A stretch of DNA of 64,000 bases from Strobilurus pachycystidiatus. Lineage: Eukaryota; Basidiomycota; Agaricomycetes; Agaricales; Physalacriaceae. A program made the translations under genes and the position numbers. A model generated the notes under the pieces. That model searched no databases, had not been told where the DNA came from, and saw only the letters and a program-made list of their open reading frames with translations. The DNA lies in contig JAHLMK010000033.1 in NCBI GenBank assembly GCA_019915135.1, positions 62,001 through 126,000 on the forward strand, given 5' to 3'. Positions 12,081-27,469 of this stretch are shown in pieces (position 1 is the stretch's first letter; every line of letters starts with the position of its first letter).

Positions 12081-13506
12081 TTATTTAAGTACTAGTCAAT
12101 TGTGTAAATACAAATTTTAATATTATAAAAAAAATATCTAATTTGTAAAGTCAAAGTAAGAGAAAAGTTATCTTAAAAAAAAAAACTTCTTTTTTAATTA
12201 AATTTAAATAATTATCGACTAAAAAAAAAAATTTTTTTTAATCTAATTCCTCGTAGTTCCGTCTTTCTTCTTTTTAATCAGAGGTTTATAAAAAGATTTG
12301 GGGGTTAAAAAGAAAAAAAGGTTAAAAACTAAAAATGATTTTGAATTAAGAAATAAATAAAAAAGAATTATAATTTAATATTAACTTATTTTTGAGGGTA
12401 AATTTGTTCTTCTTTATTTTCATCTTCATCTTCAATAAAGTTATTACAACTCTCTCTTTTTAATACTTTAAATCTATTTATCAAATTATATTTCCCTCAC
12501 CCCCCCCCCCCCTCCCCTCCCCTCCCCTCCCCTCCCCCCCCCCCCCTCCCCAAAGGGGAGGGGAGGGGAGGGGGCGGAAAAATTAAAAACAGACTGCCGG
12601 CAGAATAAGAAAACCATTTTTAGTCTTTCTTTTTATCTCTACCTGTTAGTAAAAATAAAAAAGGAAGAGATAGAAAAATAGGGAGGTTAATTAAAAAATA
12701 GTTTATTATTATAAAAAAGTAACTTATAAAATTCTATTCTATAAAAAAAGATGAATGTAGATCCTCCCCCTTCCGCCGTTCGGCTAAAAAAATAGGAATT
12801 TATAAATTTCTATTTTTAAGGCCCATTTTTGGAGGGGGGGAGGGTAATAAAGGGGTTTTACAAATTTTAAATAAAATTTTTTATTTCTTTATCAATCTTA
12901 ATAAAACTAATATTAAGAGTTTGGAGAGATTTTATATTTCCTACACAACCCTGGTTAAATTATAACATAAAAAAAAAAAAAAAGACACGTAAAATCCCGC
13001 TGTTAATTTATTTAAAAAAGTTTACGTTCCCACCCCCGGTTAAGGGAACCCATTTTTCCTTTTTTGACAATTATGGGCCGGGGGGGGGGTTATGGCTTTA
13101 AGGTTTTAATGGTTTATGGGATTAAGGGAGAAGGAAAAAAAAAAAAATAGATTACAAATACTTTTGTAATTTTTTAAAACCGTACACCCTCCCTGCCGTC
13201 CCATTTATGGCACCCTAAATGGGACGGGGGAGGGCCGGGAGAAGGGGGATGTAGGTAGAAAAATACAAAAAATTTAGTAAATCCTTTTTATTAAAAGATT
13301 TTTTTTTTCTATATAATTTAATTTAGAAATTATTAACATATGCTACTCTTTTTGTATATTAAAAAAGATAAGGAAATTTTTCTTTATATTTTTTTTTTAG
13401 GCTAAAGGATAGGGAAGAAGGATAGAAATTAAAATTTTATATTACTAAAATGACAAAAATCATTAAGTACTATATATTAAATATTAATTAAAATAAGGTA
13501 TATTGT
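12081..13506. other. nad5-nad2 spacer with GC clusters
   Basis: No gene is seen. The spacer holds a C/G-run block at 12498-12575 (poly-C, CCCCTCCCCTCCCC, then GGGGAGGGGAGGGG), the palindrome CTGCCGGCAG at 12593, a framed hairpin at 12775-12824, and G-rich patches at 13030-13095 and 13185-13250. The rest is AT-rich homopolymer tracts. It probably contains transcript-processing sites, but none is recognisable. Confidence 0.65.
12775..12824. repeat. Framed hairpin repeat element
   Basis: CCGTTCGGCT, an A-run, the hairpin ATAGGAATTTATAAATTTCTAT and then AAGGCCC. It has the same frame as the elements at 3064 and 39245 but a slightly different stem. Confidence 0.72.
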
Positions 13507-16500
13507 TTAAGATTGTTTAGAACTCTTTTTAATAAAAGCTACTGAAAAAACATATAAAGTATAACTTAACACTACAATTAGTTTAGGTAAATCATTAGAA
13601 TACTCGATACCAAATAAGAAATAACTAGAGATTAAAGAAATTACAAATAATAAGACGATAGTAAAATAAAGAGCATAAGTAGTTATTAAACCTGTATCTA
13701 ATTTAGAAATATTATTACTAATAAAAAAGAATAAACTACTTAAACCATGAGGTCCTACTAATTCTATAACACCCCTATCTAGTTTTTTAGAAATAATATA
13801 ACCCAATTTAAACCCATTAGAAAATATATAATTATTATATATAACATCAAAATAATATTTACCATTTAAAAAACCATATATTTTTTTAATTTGTGTATAT
13901 TTAGTTAAAATAGATAACAGATGAGGTGTTTGATTATAAAGAATTAAACCTATAAACGATCCTAAAAAACTTAAAATTGTAGGTAATAATTTAATAAATA
14001 AATTTAAAGAATATTCCGCTTCAACTAAAGAGATATTATTAGGATGTATAAATAAAGAATTACCAAAAAAATCAGAACCTATACCCACAAACATATCTGA
14101 AAATAAATAACCAAAAAATATACTAAATAAAGATAATATAATTAAAGGTAAAATTATAGCTAAATTAGATTCATGAGCATTTAAATAAGATTGTTTATTC
14201 CCATTTGGATTAGATAAAAAAACTAAACTTATTAATCTGAAACTATAAAAAGCGGTTAAACCAGCTGTTATAGAACCTAATAAATAAGCATACATACCAC
14301 TAAACTTATATTTACCATAAGCTAATTCTAATATTAAATCTTTACTGTAAAATCCACTTAAAAAAGGTGTAGCTAATAATGATAATGTTCCTACAATCAT
14401 CACTGAATAAATGAAAGGTAAAAATTTTATTAAACCTCCCATTTTTCGTACATCTTGTTGATCATTAAATGAATGGATAACGGCTCCAGCTGATAAAAAT
14501 AATAAGGCTTTAAAAAAACTATGATTTACTGTATGAAATAGTGCCACATTGTATTCACTAAGTCCTATAGCCATTACCATATAACCTAGTTGGCTGATGG
14601 TAGAAAAGGCTATTATTCTTTTAAGGTCGTTTTGGACCAAACCACTAGTAGCAGCAAAGAAAGCCGTAGTAGCCCCCACTAAAGTAATAACTAATAAAGC
14701 TGTAGGACTATATTCTAATATAGGTGAACTTCTTAATAGTAAATAAATACCTGCAGTTACCAACGTAGCAGCGTGCAATAAAGCTGAAACAGGAGTAGGC
14801 CCATTTTCTCATTAATTAAAAATAAATTATAATTTAGGGTTTGTTATGGGAGCTTTAACTAGTTTACTTAATATTACCAGGGTTAAGAAAAGGGAGGGGG
14901 TGGTTCCCCTTCTCCCTCCCATTTTTGGGCGGTCCCCCTTATCTACCGACCCTCCCCCGCCATTTATGGACGGCGGGGGAGGGTGGTCCCCTTTTGCCTC
15001 CTAAGCCCGGCCCACCCCTTTGAGGAGGGGGAGGGTTGGGTGGGGGAGGGAGGCTGGTGTGGGGGGGGGGGAGAGTGGGAGGGGTAACTACAACTTAAAC
15101 TATTCTTCTCTCCTATTCTTTCAATTGAAAGGATCAATATCAGTAATAAAGATTTAATCTCAAAGATAATCTTTATATTACTTACATTGGTTTCGATAAA
15201 AAATGACCATAAAAAAAATTTAAAAATATTTAAATTAAAAAAAATTAAAAATTAAAAATTAAAAATATTTAAATTAAAAAAAATTAAAATTATAAAAAAT
15301 AAATTTAGAATAAAAATTGTCAGATATTTAACTAAATTTAGATAATAATTTTTTTTTAATTTATTTATATTTGTGTGACCGTTCCTAATAAGGAAGAGGG
15401 AGCTGGCTTTTTTCATAGTCATAATGTGATTCTTAATAAAATCAGGATATCATTTATAAATTGAAAATTTTTTTCCTTTAGTTATATTTAGTATTAAATA
15501 AAAATTAAACATATAAAAAAATATCAAGCTTAAACTAATTAAAAAGGCTATAAGACTACAGGTTATTAATAAATAATAAGTTTTTAATTGCGGCAAAAAA
15601 AAAGTGACATTAAAATAGTTTAGTATACAATAAATAAATTCAGCTAGTAAGAAGTTAAAAAAAAATTTATTTAACCATAAATCTAATTTAGGCCAATTTG
15701 TTCCCCCCACCCCCTCTTCGGCTCTTCATTCCCCTCCCCAACTATGGGTAGGGGAGGCAAAGGTGAAAAGGGTAGTGATTAATTTCATTAAAGATAAGTA
15801 TAAATTATTATCACATCATAATTTTCAAATTACTTTATAATGTTTAAATGGTATCATTATTAAATATAAAAACATATCTTCAGGTTCAAAATCTGATCCT
15901 CCAGAAGAATCTGAATCTTTTTTAGCAATATTTGAATCTTTATTATCTTTTGACTGTTCTTCTTCCTGACTTGTTTGTTCTTTTGGTAACAAATCAGACT
16001 CTTCGGTTGAGTTATCAGAATCATTTGTATCTGATTCCTCAGTCAATTTCTCAATTTTAGGATCTTCTGTGTAATTGGATTCTGATACATGTTCATCTTT
16101 TGATGTAGAAGAGTCCCCTGTGTCTGTGGTAGTTTTTGAATTGTGATTATTATCCCAATCAGAATCAGCTCTCTCCTTACCTTTACCTTTACCTTTTGAA
16201 ACTATATCAGAAGAAGAAGCAGAGGAATATTCGGAGTTATCATTAGAATCAATAATTGGATCAGCTATACCTGCCCCTGAAGATCTTTCAGAAGAAGAAG
16301 CAGGGGTAGGACTAGAAGTTCGAGTAGGGGTCTGAGTAAGAGTGCCAGTAGGAGTCACTGTTGGGGAAGAAGAATCATAATCTGAATCAATATCAACCTC
16401 ATTCTGAATAGGTCTTGTTTGAATATGAACGTCTAAAAAATGACGGTCGTAGGTACGTCTATCACGGACGTAATCTTGTCACACAGAAGTATTTTGTAAC

Positions 16501-19500
16501 CCATTCTCTTCGTTACTTTCAGGATAAGTCGAAGAAGATCCTTCAGTATTACTTATATGGGCAGTTGAAGTACTTGCTCCTACGTTACTTTCCGTATAAG
16601 TCGAAGAAGATCCTTCAGTATTACTTATATGGGCAGTTGAAGTACTTGCTCCTACGTTACTTTCCGTATAAGTCGAAGAAGATCCTTCAGTATTACTTAT
16701 ATGGGCAGTTGAAGTACTTAGTTCAGGGTCAGTAAAAGAATTTGATTCAGGGTTATTTACAGAAGAAGGGGTAACAGGTCTATACGGAATATATTCCTCA
16801 TTAGCACCTAATACCCCGGCATCTCTACCTAACCTGCTTAATTTAAATGAGGAACCTTCCATAAAAGATTGTCCAGCGTCCATAACATATGCGAAATCGC
16901 ATCCCTTTTCCTTTAGGACTTGAGAGATCTCTTTAAGATCTTCCGCTTTATTAATAAATTCCATTACTGCTTCCGGACCTTTCGCACTAGCAGCTTCATA
17001 CAGAGCATCAATTTGGGCTTCTCTAGCCAGATAAAGAGCCCTATCCATAGGCACTAGTCTTTCAATATTTTCAGTATTTCCCGAACTATCAAAAGGTAAA
17101 ACACGACCCAAGTGAAGATAAAAGGGATTCCTTATTCCACGTAAAAACCTAGACAATTTTAGTTTTAAATAATTAAAAAATTTATTTTTATTATTTTTTT
17201 TAATGGGTGGTAAACCATTCCCTCCCGATCCCTTAATGGGAGGGGCTGGGTGAACAGAAGAATTCAAATGAGTCTTTTGTGTAAGACTACTTGGTTGTAT
17301 TTGTGAATTTGGTGTTGGCTTTGAATTTAGAGTAGTATTTTTTTGCGAAAACTTTGAAGAAAAATTATAACTTCCTTCCAATACCTGTTTTTTTTTCGGA
17401 AAATTATAAAAATAAAAAAAAAATAAATACAAAAAACTAATAAATAATAAATTCAATTTATTATGAATTACTGGAACCTCAAACATAGACTGTGATATAT
17501 AGAAATAATCAAACAACGTCGACAAAATGCCAATAGACAATACCAGACTCAAGACCAACATGACCCTCACGATTAAAAAGGTAAAACACCTGCCTAAGGC
17601 AGCCAAAAAATAAAAAGATAGTTCCAACGATAACGTGAAAACCATGTAGACCCGTGGAGCTGTAGAAAACAGTACCAAAAGCACCATCCGCTAAAGAAAA
17701 TTCGGCATTAGAATATTCAAAATATTGGAACATAGTAAAAATAACAGCTAATAGAATAGTTAAAATTAAACCATTAATAGAATCAGTTCTTTTTCCACCA
17801 ATTAAAGAATGATGAGCATAAGTAACAAAAGACCCACTAGATAATAATAAAAAAGTATTAAGTAATGGTATAGCAAAAGCATCTAAAGCAGTGACACCAA
17901 ATGGTGGTCAAATTCCACCTAATTCAACTGAAGGAGAAAGTGCACTATGAAAATAAGCTCAAAAAACTGACATAAAAGCCATTACTTCACTTATAACAAA
18001 TAAAAAAAAACCTAAAATTAAACCTTTTTTAACTTCTTTAGTATGGTTTCCTAAAAAAGTTCCTTCTATTCCTATATCTGTAAACCAGAAAGCCATAACA
18101 GCAAGAGTAGAAACAAAACCTAATAATAATAAGTTTGAACCTATTTGAAATCCTTGCATTGATAATACTGCCCCAATAGCCATAAAAAATAAAGTTCAAC
18201 TGATTGTAAAAGGTCAAGGAGAATTTTCCACTAGATGAAATGGATGAGATTGAAAATTATTTTTTAAATTAATTAAATTTAAATTTAACATTAAAATTTA
18301 ATGTTTTTCACCTTTAAAAGGTTAATATATAAAATTGTCTTATAAAATTCTATTGTAAGTTTTCTGCCGGCAAAAAATTTATAAATAATTTATTTTTGAA
18401 TTTTTTTCCTAGTCCCTTCCCTTCCCTTCCCTCCCCTTTCCTTGTAGATCACAAATATAGACGGTTTAACGTACACCCATTCTCTAAAAAGAAAAAAAAG
18501 GTCTCTTTAATTAAAGGGTAGAGACATGTTCTATTATAATTAAAAGTAAATTTTATTAAGGGGGTTAATTTTAATTTGGGCAGGTGTCCCCCCTCCCCGA
18601 CCCCGACTCCCATAAATGGGTGGAGGGGAGGGAGGGGGGAGGGGGAAAATATGATAGTCTAACTTTAAAGTGTGTATATTAAATAATATATTTCACACCG
18701 TACGGAAAAAGAAAGACTAATTTAAATAAATATTATTTATTACAAATTTTTTTACTTCAATAAATTTAAAAATTAATTAATTTTAATTTGATGCTCTTCT
18801 GCTCTGCTCTGCATCCCCACCACGAATAAAAACTCCTTTACCTTACACCCCCTCCTATACCCCCCCCCATAATTGGGAGAATGGAGAATGGGAGAATGGG
18901 GGGGACCCTCCCATAAAAAAAAATATGTGTATCTACTATCGTACTCATCTTTGGTAGATATTAAAAATAAAAATAAAAATAAAATTAAAAATAAAATTAA
19001 AATTAAAATTAAAATTAAACCTCTTAAAGGTAGATAGAGTATACGTAGTAAATTAAATTAAATTATTTAATAAATTTATTTGTAGAAGTGGAAGTGGTAG
19101 TGTAAGTGAAAGTTAAAGGAGTATTAGTTTTTTTTTTTCTTTAAAGTGGTAGTGTTAAAATTAATTATTTACCTTAAAAAAATGAAAGGAGAATAACTAC
19201 TTAAATATAAAGTAATGTAGTTAAAACCAGTCATTTACTTCTTTTTTTGATTAATTAAAAAAAAAAAGGAAAAAAAAATTTTTTTATTTAGGGAAAAAAT
19301 CCTTCACTTAAATAATAAAATAAAAATTAAACTCTCCTCTACGTGGACGTGGACGTGGACGTGGACGTGGACGTTGGACGTGGACGTGGACGTGGATTAT
19401 TTTAATTAAATTTAAATAATATATATATTAATTGTTTCTTTATATTACACTATGTCAAATTTAATTATTATTTTTTTTTTAATATTATAAAAATAGATAA

Positions 19501-22500
19501 AAGAAAAAAAACCTCTACTTTTAAATTATATAGTAATAATTGAGGTTTTAATTACCCAATTAAATAAAAATAGAAATTTAATTACAAAATAAAAAAAAAA
19601 AAGGGGAGGGCCCCCTCCCTGCGTTAGCCCTCCCATTTATGGGCTTATGGGCTTATGGGACCCTTTTATGGGACCCAATTATGGGAGGGGAGGGTCTGCT
19701 CCCTTCCTTCCCGGCAGGGGTTGGGAAATGGAGGGCAAGATATGGGAAGGATCTTTTATATTGGTGGTGGTGATGGAGCTGAAAAAGAGGGTGGAACTAA
19801 GTAACAAATTTTTTTTGTGATAGGGGAGGGGGGAGATTTTTAATTTTTTTAGGATTTTTTTTATAAGTTTAAGATTTACTTCTTTATTAAATCTATTATA
19901 TTTCTGGTAAAAAAAAAATAAATAAATTTTTTTATTTTTTTTTTCTTATTTAATGATTTAATTTTTTTTATAAAAAAGAAATAGGATTTTAACCTCTTCT
20001 TCTTTTGTTGTTAGGAGAAGGTAAAGTGTTTTCTGTATCTTCCCCAGGTTGAGGTTGAGATTGAGATTCTGCCGGATGGTGAGAACTAGAACCAGAGACT
20101 TATGAGGAACGGGACTCCATTAATCTCTTAAGTACTTTATTCTTCACTATTCATTATCAGATTCACCCCATTCGGATCAGTACTCGTTCTCAGAATCAGA
20201 TGGATCTGATAATGGATTATACCCATCTTCACCATAGTTCTGAGGAAGTAAAGCAGGATCTATCTCCTTTAAAATAGGCTTAATACGGTTATACCCGTCC
20301 ACTCACTGGTCTAAGGATTGGTTATACTCTGGGGTACCCTTAGTAGCAGCAGCAAATCTATCCTGACGTTCAGAAAGTACTTCGTTGGCAGCTCTTAAAG
20401 TTTCAGGGTTTCTCTCCCCTGATGTATAACTCTTAACCGCAGCATCAAGAATAGGGTCACCCTCCAACTCCAGATCGTCTGGATTATCAGTAATTGGAGG
20501 ACGAGTAAGAGAGTAACTACCATAAGGATCATAATCATCGTCTGGATTTGAAGAACCAGGATTATCGTCTGGATTTGAAGGACCAGGATTATCGTCTGGA
20601 TTTGAAGGACCAGGATTACCATTCTCACTTAATAGAGTCTGAGGGTAAGGATCTAATTTAATAGTATAATCCATCTCAACGGAATCAACATAAAAATAAA
20701 AATCGTCATATAAATAATAATAGCCACTGTAAGTATCTGAAGAAAGATAATAAACACAAAAGTTTGAAATAATGGTAAAGTCAAAGTAAAAAATACCTGA
20801 ATATAAGAAATAATAAATACTGAAAACTAAAAATTTTAAAATAAATAAGATTAAATATTTTTTAAAATTACTTATTTTAAAGGTTCAATAGTAATGTAAA
20901 AAATCGAATCGAATGAAAAAATACAGATTTAAATTTAAACCTTTCCATTTAGGGTAGGGTTGAAGTTTACACTGAATTTTAAAATAAGAATAAATTGCTT
21001 CACAATAAAATAGGAAAAATCTGAACATCTTTATTAAAAACATTTTAATTTAATTTAATTTTGTTAGTTTAAAAGCTGTACCATTTAATTAAACTCGTAT
21101 ATTGACAAGAAGGACTTAAATGTGAATTAATTAATAATATATTTTTACTTTAAAAAAAAAAGCTAGTTAATTTAAAGTTGTAGGAATGGCTGTTAAATAT
21201 TAAAAAGACAATTTAGGTGGGGATTGGGTCACGCGCTCACGAAATAAGGTCGACCCATAAATAAATGGGAATGGGCGAGTGGTAGAGATAAGTGCTGAGT
21301 GGTGATCAATTTTTGGCTTTGGCGGCGTCCGCCGCGGAGAAACAACTTGAAAGAATAACTATATATTTATTATATTATTTTTTTAATCAATGTGTTTAAG
21401 GTTCATCAATAATTGAGTAATTTATTATAAATTTAAAATTTAATTAGAATAAGAAAATTTTAGATTATTCAAATTAAATAGTATAGCTTTTGCTATTTGA
21501 CTGTTCAGGCAAATAAGCTAGGTCTTACACCTATTATTTTATTTTTTTTTTTTTGAACGTCTAATTAATAGAAGAAATATAATATAATTTGGAGTTATGA
21601 TTTTAATCTGATTAAAATATAATTTGGAGTTATGATTTTTATCTTATTAAAATTTTACAATATATCTAACTATATTTACATTTATGAGAGTTCTTTCTTT
21701 TTTAAAAATGACCCTCTTCTGTTCTGTTATTAAAAAAGATAAAATTAAAACCAGCGAAGCTCTGCTCTGCACTTTATCTTTTCTTTAAACAGGTCATGTT
21801 ATATATAAACTTAAAATTTAAGTTAATAAAACTAATTTAAATGATAAACATTTCGTCTCTGAATATTTTAATTATCATCTTGCTGATTGACATAAAATTT
21901 GAAATTTTTACTATTAAATATTTTTATTTTTTTAATTTAATTTTAATTTAATTTTAATTTATTAATTGAAAATGAAATTATCCTCTTTTAAAGAAAAAGA
22001 AAGAGAAAAAAATTTTAATTACGTAATTAAATAAAAAAAAGAGCACATTAAAACCAAAAATGGTGGACTTTATCTTTTCTTTAATAGTTTTAAAGTATTA
22101 AATTAAAATTTAACTTAAGAAAACTAAATTAACTTATAAACGTAAAGTCTCTGAAGATATTAATTATCATCTTGCTGATTGACATAAAATTTGAAATTTT
22201 TACTATTAATTAAAGGTATTTACGTGGATCTTTTTTATTTTTATTAATTTATTAAGTAAATAATCTGGATTTAAATAAATATATAAATTAGTATTCAAAT
22301 TTAACAGTGTTTCCAGCATATAGTTTATTTTTTGATTAGGAGACCCCTACTATTTTTTTTTTTTTTTTTACAACAAATTTTATTTTTATTTAAGTATTAA
22401 ATAATATATTTTTTTTTTAGTTATGCAATCTCCTTATATCGATATTTTAATTTTTTTTGTTTTAAATTTTACAAAATCTTACTAAAAATAATTATTTATT

Positions 22501-25500
22501 GGGTTTTCGTTACAATCTTATATCTACCCTCAAATAGTAAATTTTTATCAGAATATGTTCGTATTCGATTTATTTTGTATTTACGAGCTGCTGCAGATGC
22601 TGTATCAAAAGATTCTGTTTTATTTGTTAAAGTATCAAAAACTAAAGTAAATTTTTTTTTCCTATCTAAAATTAAAGAGTTAGGATTACGAACAAAGTAA
22701 TAAGAAATATTATCTCCAGTTAAAATATCTTTAATTGTTACTTGATATTCTTTATTAATAGCATAATTTATAATTTTATTATGTTTTAAACCTAGGTTTA
22801 ATCTAGCTTGGCTAGCATTATTAAATTCTTTTACAATCTCTTTATTTGCATTTAAACCAAAAACTTTATTAAGAGGCAAAGAATAAATATCTATATTAGT
22901 TATTAGAGATATTTCTTTTAATGGATCTGAAGTTAAAATTTCAGACTCTTTCAAGGGCATTAAAGGAGTATATAATCTTACTAGTTTATTTCACACTTTA
23001 ACATTTAAAAAATTAGGATGATTTAAATATCTGACGATAGTTCTTCTGGATATTTTTAATTCCAATGAAGCTGCATTTATAGAAGAAAATTCTTTTATTC
23101 AATCTCCTTTTTCACTATAAGCCACAAAAGATACAGATTGATATTTAGGATAATAAGAAGGTTTTCAGTTAGTAAATTGAAAAGTTACTGGGCGTAAAAA
23201 ATCATTTAAATTTGGTTTATAATAGGAAATTAAAGCTTGTTCATATATTCTAATTTGATATTGAGTAAAAGCATCAAAAATATACTTTAAAGCAGGATCT
23301 TCTTTAATAATTTTACGCTCCGCCAGCACCGCCTGATCCGTCTCCGCAAGACTTAATTTATTTTTAGCATCTAGGCTAGCCAGATACTTTACATAATAAT
23401 TAGGAAAATTAATTATCACTTTAACTTTAAAATCTTTTAACTGACTGTCATTAGAATTGTACAAAATAGATGTGAAATCATTATTAGAATTTCTAAATCC
23501 TTGTAAATGTAGAGTAAATCTATTATAAAAATGAATAGAAGATCCTATATACATATCTCCTGTCTTGGTATTTAGAATTATATAAATACCTGATTGACCT
23601 GAGTATTTATCACCTAATATTTTATTAGTATTTGTAGCTAAAAAGGGAATGTTCTTATCGTTAACAATATCAAGCTTATTTATAGTATCTGTAGTTAAAC
23701 CTGTATCATCTTTATAAATTTTTAAGGTAGCCCCTAAAAAGCTATTACAATTATCTATAAGAAATAACTTAGAAGAACTATTAGAAGGCAGGGATTCGAT
23801 CATTTTTATTAAAATCTCCTTAGCTTGTATAATTGTATTTGTTTCATTTCAAGGTATAAAGTTTCTGCTAATATTATGACTATCGCGCTTTCTAATCATA
23901 ATTAAATTAAAAAAAGAATATTTAACAACTTTATACAATAAACCTTTCCATATTGACTGTGTGTAAGTGTAAACACCTGTATTTAAAGAGGCGGAGGCTC
24001 CGCACAACAAGAAAATTAATGTTTGATATAAATTAAAAAAAAAAAATACAAATATTATAAGAAAAAAACAAAAATTGTAAAAATATAAAACAAATAAACT
24101 TCAAATAAAAATACACGTTATATTAAAAATTTTTTTTTGTGTAATTAAATAATTTAAGTTAATTGTAGTAGTTTGTTCAGCCTCCATACTTCCAGGTAAC
24201 CAACTATGTAAAGGTATTTGACTGGATTTAGCCGAAGCACCTCCAAATAGTAATAAAGCAATTATAGTTATAGCTGTTTCATTCATAAACGGAGCTAAAG
24301 AAAAAACAGTAGAATAGTTTAAAGAATTAAATAAAGCTATTATAGCAAAAAACCCAATACTTAATAACATATCACCTTGCCTGTTGACTGTGAAAGCTAA
24401 TATTGCTGCTTTGTTTGCTTGAATTCTTGTAAAATAAAAATTAATAAGTAAGTATGATACTACTCCGATAGCTTCCCAACCTACAAACATTACGAAGTAA
24501 TTACCTCCACTAATTAAAACTAACATTCCAAAAGTGAAAGCTGATAAGTAAGAGAAGAATCTTTGAATGTGCATGGCTATCAAATTTATCTTGTAATTAA
24601 AAATTAAAAATCACCTTTACTAGAAGGCGGAGCGGCTTTATAATCTCTATTATTATTCATAAAAGATTTTATAGTTCTAATTTTATCTAAACCTTCTGAA
24701 GTAAGATGAGACCTCAAATTAATTATATTAACAACTTTACATCAGTCAATAAAATCCAAACGTTTTATACCTAAAATTGAATGCTCTTCAAAAAAAGGTA
24801 TAATCTTTTTGTTTATATCTGATAAACTAACTACGGTTAAATACACAGCATTTTGATTTTTATAGTGATATAAAGAACCCGTTCCTAGACAATCAATGAT
24901 AATTTTCATTAATTCTAAGTCTTTGGAGTGTTGAGTAATTCTAAATCTTAATTGAACACGATAACCGCTATTATGTGTGGAATCTCTAGATATATTTATA
25001 TCAAAAGAACCATCACCTGATACGAAACCACTAATTCTATTAGGGTCAGGAATACGACCTAGTTTCAATTTCAGGTTTTTCACATATTATAAAATTAGTA
25101 AACTCAGATTTTAAATTATCAGATAGCCCTAAATTAATGGATGCTTTTAATTTAACTATTTTGTGTAACCCTTCTATTTGGAAATGACCTTTATCAAAAT
25201 AAATTTGAGCAGCTTGCTTAAAAAAAATTCAGTCTGCTTTTTTTTTTTACTAATTAAAGGATACTTATCAAAGTGAGTTATCAAAACGGCTAAATCATCT
25301 TTAGAGCTAAGTGAGAAATTTGCTACTTCACGTTTATTATTTATATAAATATTTCCAGCCCCACCCATATAAATTTTTAATTGATATAATAAATTTACAT
25401 CTTTTATATGCAGACCCATTTGAAATTTTAATTCTACACTTCAACCTAAGGAACGTTTTACTTTTTTTGTTATTAGAATAGAAAATGAGCCTTCTGCATC

Positions 25501-26208
25501 TATAAGACCTGTTCAAAATCAAGGATTTATATTCGAAGGTAATGTAGATAAAGTAGAATATTTTTTAATATTTAATTGGTTAGAAGGGATTTTGATTGGA
25601 TACTTTCTTTCGAAACCCATTAGAGTATACCTTAACTTATTTAATTTAAATAAGTAACTACCGTCTACTCGTTGCTCTTTTACAGATAAATTTTTAGAAT
25701 TATAATCTGACTTAGATCCGCGATTACCCATTTTGTTTTCACGCATCTTCTGACTTGTTACCATACATGAGTAATTAGTTCATCCACTTATAGCCTTTCG
25801 GATATAGTTTGGTACCAGAAGCTTTAGGGCTTCCCCGGAATTTGATAGTTTAACCCACAACAGTGTTTTTCCAAAACACTTGGCAGGATCTGAAGATAAA
25901 TAATCAACAGTATAAATATGAATTAAAGTAGAACAATATAAAACAGCTAATCCTAAAGAAACTGTAATTTGATCAAAAATAAACTCTCAAGATATAGTTA
26001 AAAATTCGGAATCAATTCAACTACCTAAATTAATATAAACGGGAGTTCCGCAAATACACACTTCATAAAAAGCTATAGTCATAAATAAAGATGAAATAAT
26101 TAAACTAGTAATAGTTATTAATTGTGATCCTTTTATTCCAATTTTTCTTCCTAATAACCCTGCTGATAATGATCCTAATAAAGGTAATATAATAATTAAA
26201 AAATACAT
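13507..26208 (-). CDS. nad5: NADH dehydrogenase subunit 5, three exons split around cox3
   Basis: nad5 encodes a large antiporter-like subunit of complex I. Exons are 26208..25885 (MYFLIIILPLLGSLSAGLL to VDYLSSDP), 24571..24179 (HIQRFFSYLSAFTFGMLV to HSWLPGSMEA) and 14799..13507 (PTPVSALLHAATLVTAG to KKSSKQS, TAA). The total is 2010 nt, 669 aa, a normal length. Intron 1 is 1.3 kb with a decayed LAGLIDADG gene. Intron 2 interrupts MEA|PTPVSALLHA, a classic site, but exon 3 lies 9.4 kb downstream with cox3 and two orphan ORFs on the same strand in between. Either a giant cis intron with nested genes or trans-splicing is required. The start is 11 bases after the nad4L stop. Confidence 0.93.
14800..15251. 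other. Segment between orphan A and nad5 exon 3, GC-rich cluster
   Basis: A very GC-rich block at 14885-15090 contains several mutually complementary runs, such as CCCCCGCCATTTATGGACGGCGG. It is flanked by AT-rich DNA. The last 70 bases before exon 3 should hold the 3' end of nad5 intron 2, which ends AAAATGGG before CCTACT. I cannot recognise ribozyme core elements here. Confidence 0.6.
15252..17486 (-). CDS. Orphan ORF A, 744-aa membrane-anchored Ser/acid-rich protein
   Basis: This is an unrecognised gene directly downstream of cox3. With TGA as Trp, the frame runs unbroken from the ATG at 17486 (inside the last codons of cox3, overlap 26 nt) to the TAA at 15252. The layout is: membrane segment about 11-29 ([17 protein letters not shown]); Ser/Pro linker; a helical-looking charged region about 147-210 (RALYLAREAQIDALYEAA); three exact-length 24-aa repeats about 257-328; a long Ser/Thr/Asp/Glu-rich tract about 362-545 with KGKGKGKERAD; then hydrophobic segments about 606-622, 639-664 and 720-744. 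Two stretches (about 79-97 and 570-595) are encoded by GC clusters inserted in frame. Codons are less AT-biased than in cox3. Function unknown; acquisition from a plasmid or nuclear source is possible. Confidence 0.7.
16503..16718 (-). repeat. 72-bp tandem repeat, three copies, inside orphan A
   Basis: Three tandem copies have an exact 72-bp period: the word GATCCTTCAGTATTACTTAT recurs at 16537, 16609 and 16681. They encode STSTAHISNTEGSSSTYTES-type 24-aa units. Near-identity indicates recent expansion or ongoing homogenisation. Confidence 0.9.
17461..18291 (-). CDS. cox3: Cytochrome c oxidase subunit 3
   Basis: An intronless 276-aa core subunit of complex IV in the inner membrane. It begins at the ATG at 18291 with HPFHLVENSPWPFTISW near the N-terminus. 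Conserved blocks include FWAYFHSALSPSVELGG, YAHHSLIGG, TGLHGFHVIVGTIFL and YWHFVDVVWLFLYITVYVW, ending GSSNS and TAA at 17461. Several Trp codons are TGA. The gene lies entirely between nad5 exons 2 and 3 on the same strand, and its 3' end overlaps the start of orphan A. It looks functional and complete. Confidence 0.97.
18292..20146. other. Spacer between orphan B and cox3
   Basis: Repeats fill this stretch: CTGCCGGCA at 18363, a CTCCCATAAATGGG cluster at 18600, poly-AT blocks, short AAATTAAAATT tandem repeats at 18960-19020, the GTGGAC array at 19340 and a GC block at 19600-19700. At 19990-20140 a minus-strand stretch reads like a decayed C-terminal extension of orphan B (KVLKRLMESRSS, later SGSSSHHPAESQSQPQPGED) broken by stops. 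Confidence 0.6.
19339..19396. repeat. GTGGAC hexamer microsatellite
   Basis: About nine tandem GTGGAC units (ACGTGGACGTGGACGTGG...) with one slipped copy (GACGTTGGAC). A shorter array in opposite orientation (CCACGTCCACGTCCACGTCC) lies at 31429-31453 in cox2 intron 5. Confidence 0.9.
20147..21043 (-). CDS. Orphan ORF B, 298-aa membrane-anchored acidic protein
   Basis: This is an unrecognised gene between the nad5 intron 2 HEG and cox3. The frame runs from the ATG at 21043 (preceded by an in-frame TAA) to the TAG at 20147, with three internal TGA Trp codons. The N-terminal 120 residues are Tyr/Phe-rich with a strong membrane segment about 62-87 (YLILFILKFLVFSIYYFLY), followed by YFDFTI and a Tyr-rich tract. 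Residues about 142-168 are three NPGPSNPDD-type repeats. The remainder is an acidic/helical soluble part (GDPILDAAVKSYTSGER, NEVLSERQDRFAAATKG, YNRIKPILKEIDPALLP). It resembles orphans A and C in layout and codon use. Function unknown. Confidence 0.62.
20540..20620 (-). repeat. 27-bp tandem repeat, three copies, inside orphan B
   Basis: The unit ATCGTCTGGATTTGAAGGAC plus CAGGATT is repeated three times. It encodes NPGPSNPDD units, with one copy carrying Ser for Pro. Confidence 0.88.
21044..22495 (-). ncRNA. nad5 intron 2 ribozyme region with duplicated P7-like segment
   Basis: The stretch after the HEG stop should hold the catalytic core of nad5 intron 2. Two copies of a P3/P7-like segment are present: 22100-22215 and 21790-21920. 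Each has a CGTCTCTGAA / AGTCTCTGAAG motif, and both share an identical 47-base block (TCATCTTGCTGATTGACATA within it). This matches the GTCTCTGAGG...CTGCTGATT pairing seen in other introns here. Also present are a 33-34 bp tandem repeat around TATAATTTGGAGTTATGATT at 21580-21645, a GC-rich block with GGCGGCGTCCGCCGCGG at 21325, and otherwise AT-rich DNA. Confidence 0.6.
21871..22209. repeat. Direct repeat of 47 bp, 292 bp apart
   Basis: Positions 21871-21917 and 22163-22209 are identical, starting ATTATCATCTTGCTGATTGA. The flanks are also similar (CTTTATCTTTTCTTTAA at 21773 and 22070), so the duplicated unit is about 290 bp. Confidence 0.88.
22496..24178 (-). CDS. GIY-YIG homing endonuclease fused to nad5 exon 2, intron 2
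   Basis: The frame of nad5 exon 2 continues without TAA/TAG through the intron to a stop at 22496, so the enzyme is likely made as an exon fusion and processed. After a hydrophobic stretch (LFVLYFYNFCFFLIIFVFFF), a GIY-YIG domain appears: SGIYIILNTKTGDMYIGSS, then FYNRFTLHL and EQALISYYKPNLN. It is followed by NUMOD-like DNA-binding segments (LELKISRRTIVRYLNHP; TESFDTASAAARKYKINRIR). A GC-rich 30-base insertion near 23320 adds about ten residues (ETDQAVLAER). It is a clear paralogue of the decayed gene in cox2 intron 5. Confidence 0.85.
24604..25560 (-). pseudogene. Frameshifted LAGLIDADG endonuclease, nad5 intron 1
   Basis: First motif [15 protein letters not shown] near 25530; second RISGFVSGDGSFDINI near 25035. 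The frame slips in a poly-A run at about 25240 (coding LISKKK) and again near 25085 before the second domain, so at least two shifts separate N- and C-terminal halves. Catalytic acids are intact in both motifs. The frame ends SSKGDF and TAA at 24604. A recent loss, or homopolymer sequencing errors, could explain the breaks. Confidence 0.78.
25600..25858 (-). ncRNA. Group I ribozyme core, nad5 intron 1
   Basis: This is a family core just inside the 5' splice site (25884) with ATTCCGGGGAAGCCCTAAAG, GGTAATCGCGGATCTAAGTC and GTAAAAGAGCAACGAGTAGA. Readthrough gives [13 protein letters not shown] and KEQRVDGS. Confidence 0.8.
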
Positions 26209-26219
26209 TATTAAAAATA

Positions 26220-26486
26220 TTATGTTCTTAACGAAATTGTACCTTTAACTCTATAATGTGCTACAAGAATACTTAAACCTATAACTGATTCTGCTCCAGC
26301 TATTGAAATAATAAATATACTATAAGTTTGTCCAATACTATCATCAAAACCTAATGAACTTAATAATATTAACACCGTTACTGCTAATAACATTATTTCT
26401 ATTGCAATGATCATTAAGATAATATTTTTTCTATTTAAGACAAAACCTAAAATACCTATTAAAAATAAAATAGATGCAAATGTCAT
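26220..26486 (-). CDS. nad4L: NADH dehydrogenase subunit 4L
   Basis: An intronless 88-aa complex I subunit. The ATG at 26486 begins MTFASILFLIGILGFVLNR; conserved AIEIMLLAVTVLILL and AGAESVIGLSILVAHYR follow. The TAA at 26220 is followed 11 bases later by the nad5 start, the usual nad4L-nad5 coupling in fungi, although overlap of one base is more common. Co-transcription is expected. Confidence 0.97.
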   Translation of the reverse strand: MTFASILFLIGILGFVLNRKNIILMIIAIEIMLLAVTVLILLSSLGFDDSIGQTYSIFIISIAGAESVIGLSILVAHYRVKGTISLRT

Positions 26487-26825
26487 AGTTTAATAATTTT
26501 TGTTTAGACTAAAAAGTTCAATTAAAATTGATAAATTTCGGAGCCATTTTGGTAAGGGGTGGGTGTGCCACTCCTCCTATTTAGGGTAGTACAAATGGAA
26601 TAATTAAGCGGCAGAAAAATTTAATTAAATTAAATTAAATTAAAAATAAAAATAATTAAGGGGTTGTTTACATTTTTTTTTTTTTTCTTAGTATAAATTT
26701 TTGTTAGTTCTACCACTCCTCTCCCCTCCCCCCCCCCCCCTACGGGCGGAGGGGGGGGGAGGCGCCCTTTTGGGAGGGGTGGGGTGAGTACTAACTATTG
26801 TGGGCTAGGTTTAATTTTAATAAGG

Positions 26826-26958
26826 GCAAGATGTTTCTCACCAGTAACAATTAATCTAATATGACAATCAACAGGAATAACCAATCGATTATCCACGTCA
26901 AGTAGCCGGAATTGACCTGTTTCTAACGTATCATCCCCCATTTATGTGGGTGACTAAA
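26826..26958 (-). pseudogene. Fragment of cox2 exon 5, out of place
   Basis: The minus strand encodes [20 protein letters not shown] and then HIRLIVTG, which is cox2 exon 5 sequence. It is preceded by GDDTL instead of the resident PESDL and followed by unrelated codons to a stop. The 58 bases 26839-26896 are identical to 31813-31870, whereas the upstream 30 bases differ at most synonymous sites (for example GTCAAGTAGCCGGAATTG against ATCTAAAAGTCTAAATTG). The piece is therefore a mosaic: part homogenised with or copied from resident cox2, part from a different cox2 lineage. It is too short to function. Confidence 0.85.
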
Positions 26959-27469
26959 TTAAACAGACAATAATAAAAAAAAAAAATAATTCAATTTTAA
27001 GGTAATACTAGACTATTATTTTTTTTTTACTTATTTTTATTTTAACTAATTATTAGAATAAGACTACAGCATGAAAAAAATTAAAAATCAAAATTCGAAT
27101 ATTAGAGTAAAAATGACACTTTTCCTAAAAAAAGAGAAAATAACAAATAATAAATAATAAATAATAAATAATAATTAATAAGGGGGTGACATTATTATTT
27201 ATTGTTTTTTTAACAAATATAATTTTTCTTTATTGGAATGATGTTTATACTTCACAACCCGCCCGCCCCCCCCCCCCCCCCCACCCACCCCTCCCCTCCC
27301 CCCCCTACTCCCATAAATGGGTGGGAGGGGGAGGGAGGGGATAAAAAAACAAAAAATAAACAACCGTCCCGTTAGGAATAGTTATATTAATAATAAAGTA
27401 AATTAAACAAAATTCTGTAATAAAATTAGGGTTAATTTAATTTATATAATTTGGTTATTAGGGTTATTG

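Follow-up and report, generated by a model that had tools for sequence, protein, structure and literature searches.

A candidate gene-carrying nad5-717 group I intron with cox3 inside in the mitochondrial genome of Strobilurus pachycystidiatus

Introduction

With regard to the literature, introns that enclose whole genes at one particular site of nad5 are described from corals. The ND5-717 group I introns of Hexacorallia are reported to hold from two to nearly all of the mitochondrial genes (PMC10167242); according to a further account these genes are inserted in P8, the intron ends in A, and back-splicing has been demonstrated in two mushroom corals (PMC6545197). The same source states that the hexacoral intron appears to be of fungal origin (PMC6545197), and the intron site at nad5 position 717 is listed for fungi, coral, choanoflagellate and liverwort (PMC7325650). 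Nested genes are described in fungi as well, rps3 within an rnl intron of Ascomycota being the known case (PMC7290925), and a nad5 intron of Annulohypoxylon stygium is cited as having two sets of group I core sequences (cited in PMC8393795). In this study, the nad5 locus of the basidiomycete Strobilurus pachycystidiatus was investigated in a window of 64,000 nucleotides, by which we mean the whole stretch of DNA analysed. On the evidence of its sequence, we consider that this nad5 probably carries a giant, gene-bearing nad5-717 group I intron that is spliced in cis and contains what is apparently the only cox3 gene.

The nad5 exons and their junction

The contig, one of 61 in an assembly of 51.8 Mb, is 206,922 bases long, and the window covers its bases 62001-126000. 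The first 200 bases of the contig recur at about 180.57 kb and tRNA-Tyr is present in both ends; the contig is therefore a circular mitogenome of about 180.6 kb that was read past its start. The self-repeat at the contig ends spans about 26 kb (1-26348 and 180575-206922), and its two copies differ by indels.

We observed that nad5 consists of three exons on the minus strand, at 26208-25885, 24571-24179 and 14799-13507. Exon 1 (25885..26208) has 108 codons and carries the Proton_antipo_N domain; it is followed by the nad5-324 intron of 1,313 nt (24572..25884, minus strand), which carries LAGLIDADG frames. Exon 2 (24179..24571) has 131 codons and finishes with GGAGGCT, and exon 3 (13507..14799) starts with CCTACT and has 430 codons and a stop. 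The last base of exon 2 is T24179 and the first of exon 3 is C14799, exactly where the first-pass annotation had set them, and the nad5-717 intron between them, on the same strand, covers 9,379 nt (14800..24178, minus strand), its final base being G.

The in-frame join claimed in that annotation is correct, as the protein runs gap-free through GSMEA|PTPVS. The joined product has 669 residues and is ungapped at the junction against solved ND5 chains (three alignments printed). Among the 120 homologues listed out of 8,000 scored, the alanine at the junction (residue 239) is present in all 120, and all are gap-free over the 20 residues on either side of it; named matches include Collybia, Infundibulicybe, Pleurotus and Amanita. 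These listed homologues are mostly full-length intact frames, so the sample favours uninterrupted genes, and they test the exon join, not the presence of an intron. Alternative junctions giving ME-G-PTP were rejected, as alanine occurs in all the listed homologues and the guide described below fits the GCT|CCT cut. Altogether 239 codons, or 717 nt, precede the cut, counted along the codons of this nad5 itself and not via the reference mitogenome of the nomenclature, and residue 239 is ungapped against the best solved ND5 chain, 7zm7_5. The intron would thus lie directly after nad5 nucleotide 717, the insertion site of nad5-717 introns.

That a rearrangement disrupted nad5 and left it without function is hardly conceivable. 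The unusual distance between exons 2 and 3 speaks for such damage and nothing else does, whereas the three exons are all open and conserved, the junction agrees with every one of the listed homologues, and no other exon 3 was found in the assembly.

Copy number and assembly

Exon 3 of nad5, cox3 and the full interval were each found in one copy in the assembly searches. When the first 124 residues of exon 3 were used as query against the assembly, the exon itself and one 30%-identical match (E 9e-4) were returned, and tblastn within the mitogenome gave the exon itself and one 26%-identical match. Within the interval we also looked for a remnant or nearer duplicate of exon 3, and dropped the idea because only short, mostly AT-rich words were met there; elsewhere in the mitogenome blastn gave short matches alone, none of them over 40 nt. 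The second, closer exon 3 that the first-pass annotation had named as evidence against its own reading was thus searched for in both assembly and mitogenome, and none was found.

The interval with 100-120 nt of flanking exon on each side has one full-length match in the assembly, and its 12 other matches each concern stretches of less than 100 nt, all on the same contig. We regard it as very improbable that cox3 and the ORFs owe their place between the nad5 exons to misassembly: the interval does hold GC-rich repeats, and the 26-kb redundant contig end does not reach this locus, but the contig is circular in an assembly of 61 contigs and neither junction has a second copy in the assembly.

Genes and repeats within the interval

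The interval holds, as had been annotated, an endonuclease gene, cox3 and two orphan ORFs (A and B), all of them on the minus strand. The endonuclease ORF (22496..24178) is in frame with exon 2 and would, with the guide correctly assigned, be enclosed in the loop of P1. It has a NUMOD1 match of 37.5 bits and a weak GIY-YIG match of 22.8 bits against a cut-off of 22.6, and no homologue at E<=0.001 was obtained among 7,996 scored candidates. ORF B (20147..21043) encodes 298 aa from ATG, and ORF A (15252..17687) encodes 811 aa from its first ATG and overlaps the end of cox3 in another frame. For neither ORF did Pfam give a match at E<=0.01, nor does either recur in the mitogenome at E<=1e-4. Both contain in-frame tandem repeats, of 72 bp in 2.9 copies (98% matches) at 16511-16719 in ORF A and of 27 bp in 3.0 copies (98%) at 20537-20618 in ORF B.

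The cox3 gene (17461..18291, minus strand) is intact, encodes 276 aa and covers positions 1-258 of the 258 of the COX3 profile. It is the single match in the assembly, and no second cox3 was found in assembly or mitogenome. Its nearest named entry is M9MU60_FLAVE (75% identical), which we take to be Flammulina velutipes, and it is 97% identical to one further sequence cluster. Together with the nad5 matches named above, this points to an Agaricales mushroom as the most likely host; a search by nuclear 5.8S rRNA gave no match. Relatives sought through cox3 in IMG/VR gave two stretches that fit a pattern, none of them confirmed.

The codons of cox3 change in composition along the gene. G or C occupies the third position in 23/69 of the last codons (17464-17687) against 19/207 of the first (Fisher p 8e-6, with a cut point that was chosen after looking), while the richest 69-codon windows of nad5 reach 19 in exon 3 and 18 in exon 2. 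ORF A begins in another frame near the point where this third-position G/C rises. The pattern looks like the replacement of the gene's end by an invading element, or like two frames that both code.

Against a mitogenome of 27% GC, clusters of 60-64% GC occur at 14880-15100, 18580-18660 and 19600-19720, the first of them (14880..15100, 64% GC) standing ahead of exon 3. Parts of these clusters recur dispersed over the mitogenome, and they may be recombination points.

Guide sequence and group I core

A predicted internal guide, AGTAGGGGTCTCC, is located at 22339..22351 on the minus strand. Its first 6 nt face the start of exon 3 (P10) and its last 7 the end of exon 2 (P1), so that, read from 22351 to 22339, it pairs at 13/13 positions with GGAGGCT of exon 2 and CCTACT of exon 3, through 11 Watson-Crick and 2 G.U pairs, with U.G at the cut. 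The two strands of the mitogenome contain no other 13/13 site. When the interval was resampled 200 times by a first-order Markov model, 13 pairs were reached in one resample and 12 in 56. T24179 faces the first G of GGTCTCC in the guide and G14800 is the last intron base; the T/G splice rule invoked by the first-pass annotation therefore applies, and the sequence has the U at the 5' exon end opposite a guide G and the intron-terminal G that would be expected of a group I intron. A GC hairpin at 24005 was rejected as guide with only 10/13. When the same test was run on the nad5-324 intron, the only control tried, the best result was 10/13, and this positive control thus failed. The nad5-324 intron is without the R/S pattern searched for and may belong to another subgroup.

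The putative group I core, P3-P9, lies at 22053..22325 on the minus strand and starts 13 nt past the guide. Its P3, P4, P7, P8 and P9 strands were found by motif, P3 requiring one bulge; P6 was placed by eye, the script having given another occurrence of its 5' strand, and these six helices are the ones assigned, P9.0 not being among them. P7 has 7 bp, its strands (22149-22143 and 22072-22066) standing 70 nt apart. Similar R and S motifs occur at other places of the mitogenome. Several other introns here have a P7 of GACTAT/ATAGTC, and GACTTT/AAAGTC is found in nad5-717 and one other place, a two-sided change. An unconstrained fold of the core includes P4, P7 and P9, although its stability is no greater than that of shuffles (z 0.19). 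By these motifs the locus would possess the P3-P8 core with P7 and R/S that marks group I introns.

The covariance-model check proposed in the first-pass annotation gave no support, as Rfam called no group I intron in the whole window at its gathering score, in 13000-27000 at E<=1 or in 21700-22500 at E<=10. We do not count this as a defining failure, because the other group I introns of the window, which is rich in introns, likewise went uncalled. A helix bridging the edges of the insert (22056-21925 against 14892-14800) reached a duplex of -15.7 kcal/mol, a stability attained by 56% of 300 resampled pairs. A decayed partial copy of the core stands in tandem with the working one at 21768..21965 on the minus strand (79% over 199 aligned nt); it was excluded as the working core, as its P7 does not pair.

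Discussion

What is seen in the sequence is an exact join, its position, a single guide that can pair with the edges of both exons, and an unbroken core on the exon 2 side. The recognisable ribozyme thus appears to lie whole and upstream, next to exon 2, and since cox3 and the two orphan ORFs are located after the intact core, the insert would sit between P9 and the 3' splice site. All parts are moreover collinear on one strand and present in single copies, and cox3 is complete, which are points for an intron spliced in cis. Since the two exon edges can be brought to the core by the same guide, we take cis-splicing with a 7.2-kb 3' loop to be the simplest reading.

A single minus-strand precursor would be transcribed, and the guide and the end of exon 2 would form P1, with the endonuclease ORF looped out. 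Once the first cut is made, this guide would pair anew, forming P10 with the first bases of exon 3, and a loop of about 7.2 kb would hold ORF B, cox3 and ORF A; the last G of the intron would then occupy the guanosine site, the exons would be joined in cis, and the released intron RNA, whole or in part, would serve for the translation of cox3. Against such cis-splicing stands the argument of the coral authors that it would require the processing of the enclosed genes to wait (PMC6545197).

Of the two options offered by the first-pass annotation, the nesting of cox3 within a nad5 intron is favoured by the guide, the core and the collinear parts, and the split, trans-spliced intron found no positive evidence. 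Trans-spliced group I introns have reportedly been found, for example in Gigaspora rosea. Here the intron would be functionally split, one RNA ending after the core or cox3 and another starting before exon 3, the two being joined through P10 and minor contacts. We consider this unlikely, though deserving of attention: the core lies entirely in the 5' piece, the 3' piece ahead of exon 3 is without a recognisable core element, and the cox3 message has to be freed from the precursor somehow. On the other hand, the parts follow one another on a single strand and no break was seen; nor did a promoter come to light ahead of exon 3, a search for the yeast-type nonamer, which may not be the one used by this fungus, having given matches within the interval only in the repeats of ORF A.

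The order of events decides what becomes of both messages. Prior excision of cox3 would leave the nad5 exons to be joined in trans, and prior splicing would leave the released intron as the cox3 message. Cutting at tRNAs is a common way to free mitochondrial messages, and since ARAGORN detected no tRNA in the 81-kb stretch around the locus, it offers no route to the cox3 message here. It is a rather doubtful, speculative prospect that the nad5 and cox3 messengers compete for one precursor, excision of cox3 splitting nad5 and the ribozyme rejoining it in trans with little beyond the six-base P10, by which the production of complex I and complex IV would be coupled through one natural group I ribozyme. 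We also set aside back-splicing of the kind shown in mushroom corals, as exon 3 reaches exon 1 only by the long way of about 167 kb.

Regarding the origin of the cis-spliced intron, cox3 could have entered by recombination into the 3' arm of an ordinary endonuclease-bearing intron. For four Armillaria species it is described that nad4L overlaps nad5 and that cox3, near nad2-nad3, has moved between species (PMC6506933). In Strobilurus pachycystidiatus, a frame with the start of nad2, identified by motif only, follows nad5 exon 3. A recombination putting cox3 before exon 3 would, we infer, suffice for the arrangement; comparisons of the interval and the mitogenome revealed no target-site duplication or remnant copies. 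The capture of a host gene by a fungal intron at the site known from corals, but in a different part of the ribozyme, suggests that such events occurred more than once, and it allows the expression of intron-nested genes and the joining of splice sites 9.4 kb apart to be studied outside corals.

Comparison with known systems

As in Hexacorallia, whose introns are compared here as far as the cited accounts describe them, the same gene is interrupted at position 717, and respiratory-chain coding capacity lies inside the intron with the genes on one strand. Unlike in the corals, where the genes are in P8, the insert here would come after P9, the P7 strands being 70 nt apart; the intron ends in G14800 and not in A; and one respiratory gene (cox3) is accompanied by orphan ORFs, against two to nearly all genes in corals. 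Of the features of the hexacoral type, the locus would accordingly share the enclosed respiratory gene and neither the P8 insertion nor the terminal A. Since these gene-bearing introns form a close precedent at the same site, one that the first-pass annotation did not mention, the novelty of the present case is lower.

Among fungi, the nad5P717 introns of Candida species are group I introns at the same insertion site, and the part of the source describing them, by which alone they are set alongside, mentions no nested gene (PMC7325650). In the rps3/rnl case, as described, a fungal intron likewise houses a conserved gene of the mitochondrion, but the host gene is another, and so is the guest, a ribosomal protein gene (PMC7290925). 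Likened by description to the two-core intron of A. stygium, the present one has a second core that is a decayed copy (PMC8393795). The exon edges are far apart as in the Gigaspora rosea type, but here they are collinear. The titles and abstract starts listed by searches of open-licence PubMed Central articles gave no report of cox3 inside a fungal nad5 intron. Within that literature, genes in the nad5-717 intron are known from corals, and the fungal cox3 case with its insert after P9 appears to be a new variant.
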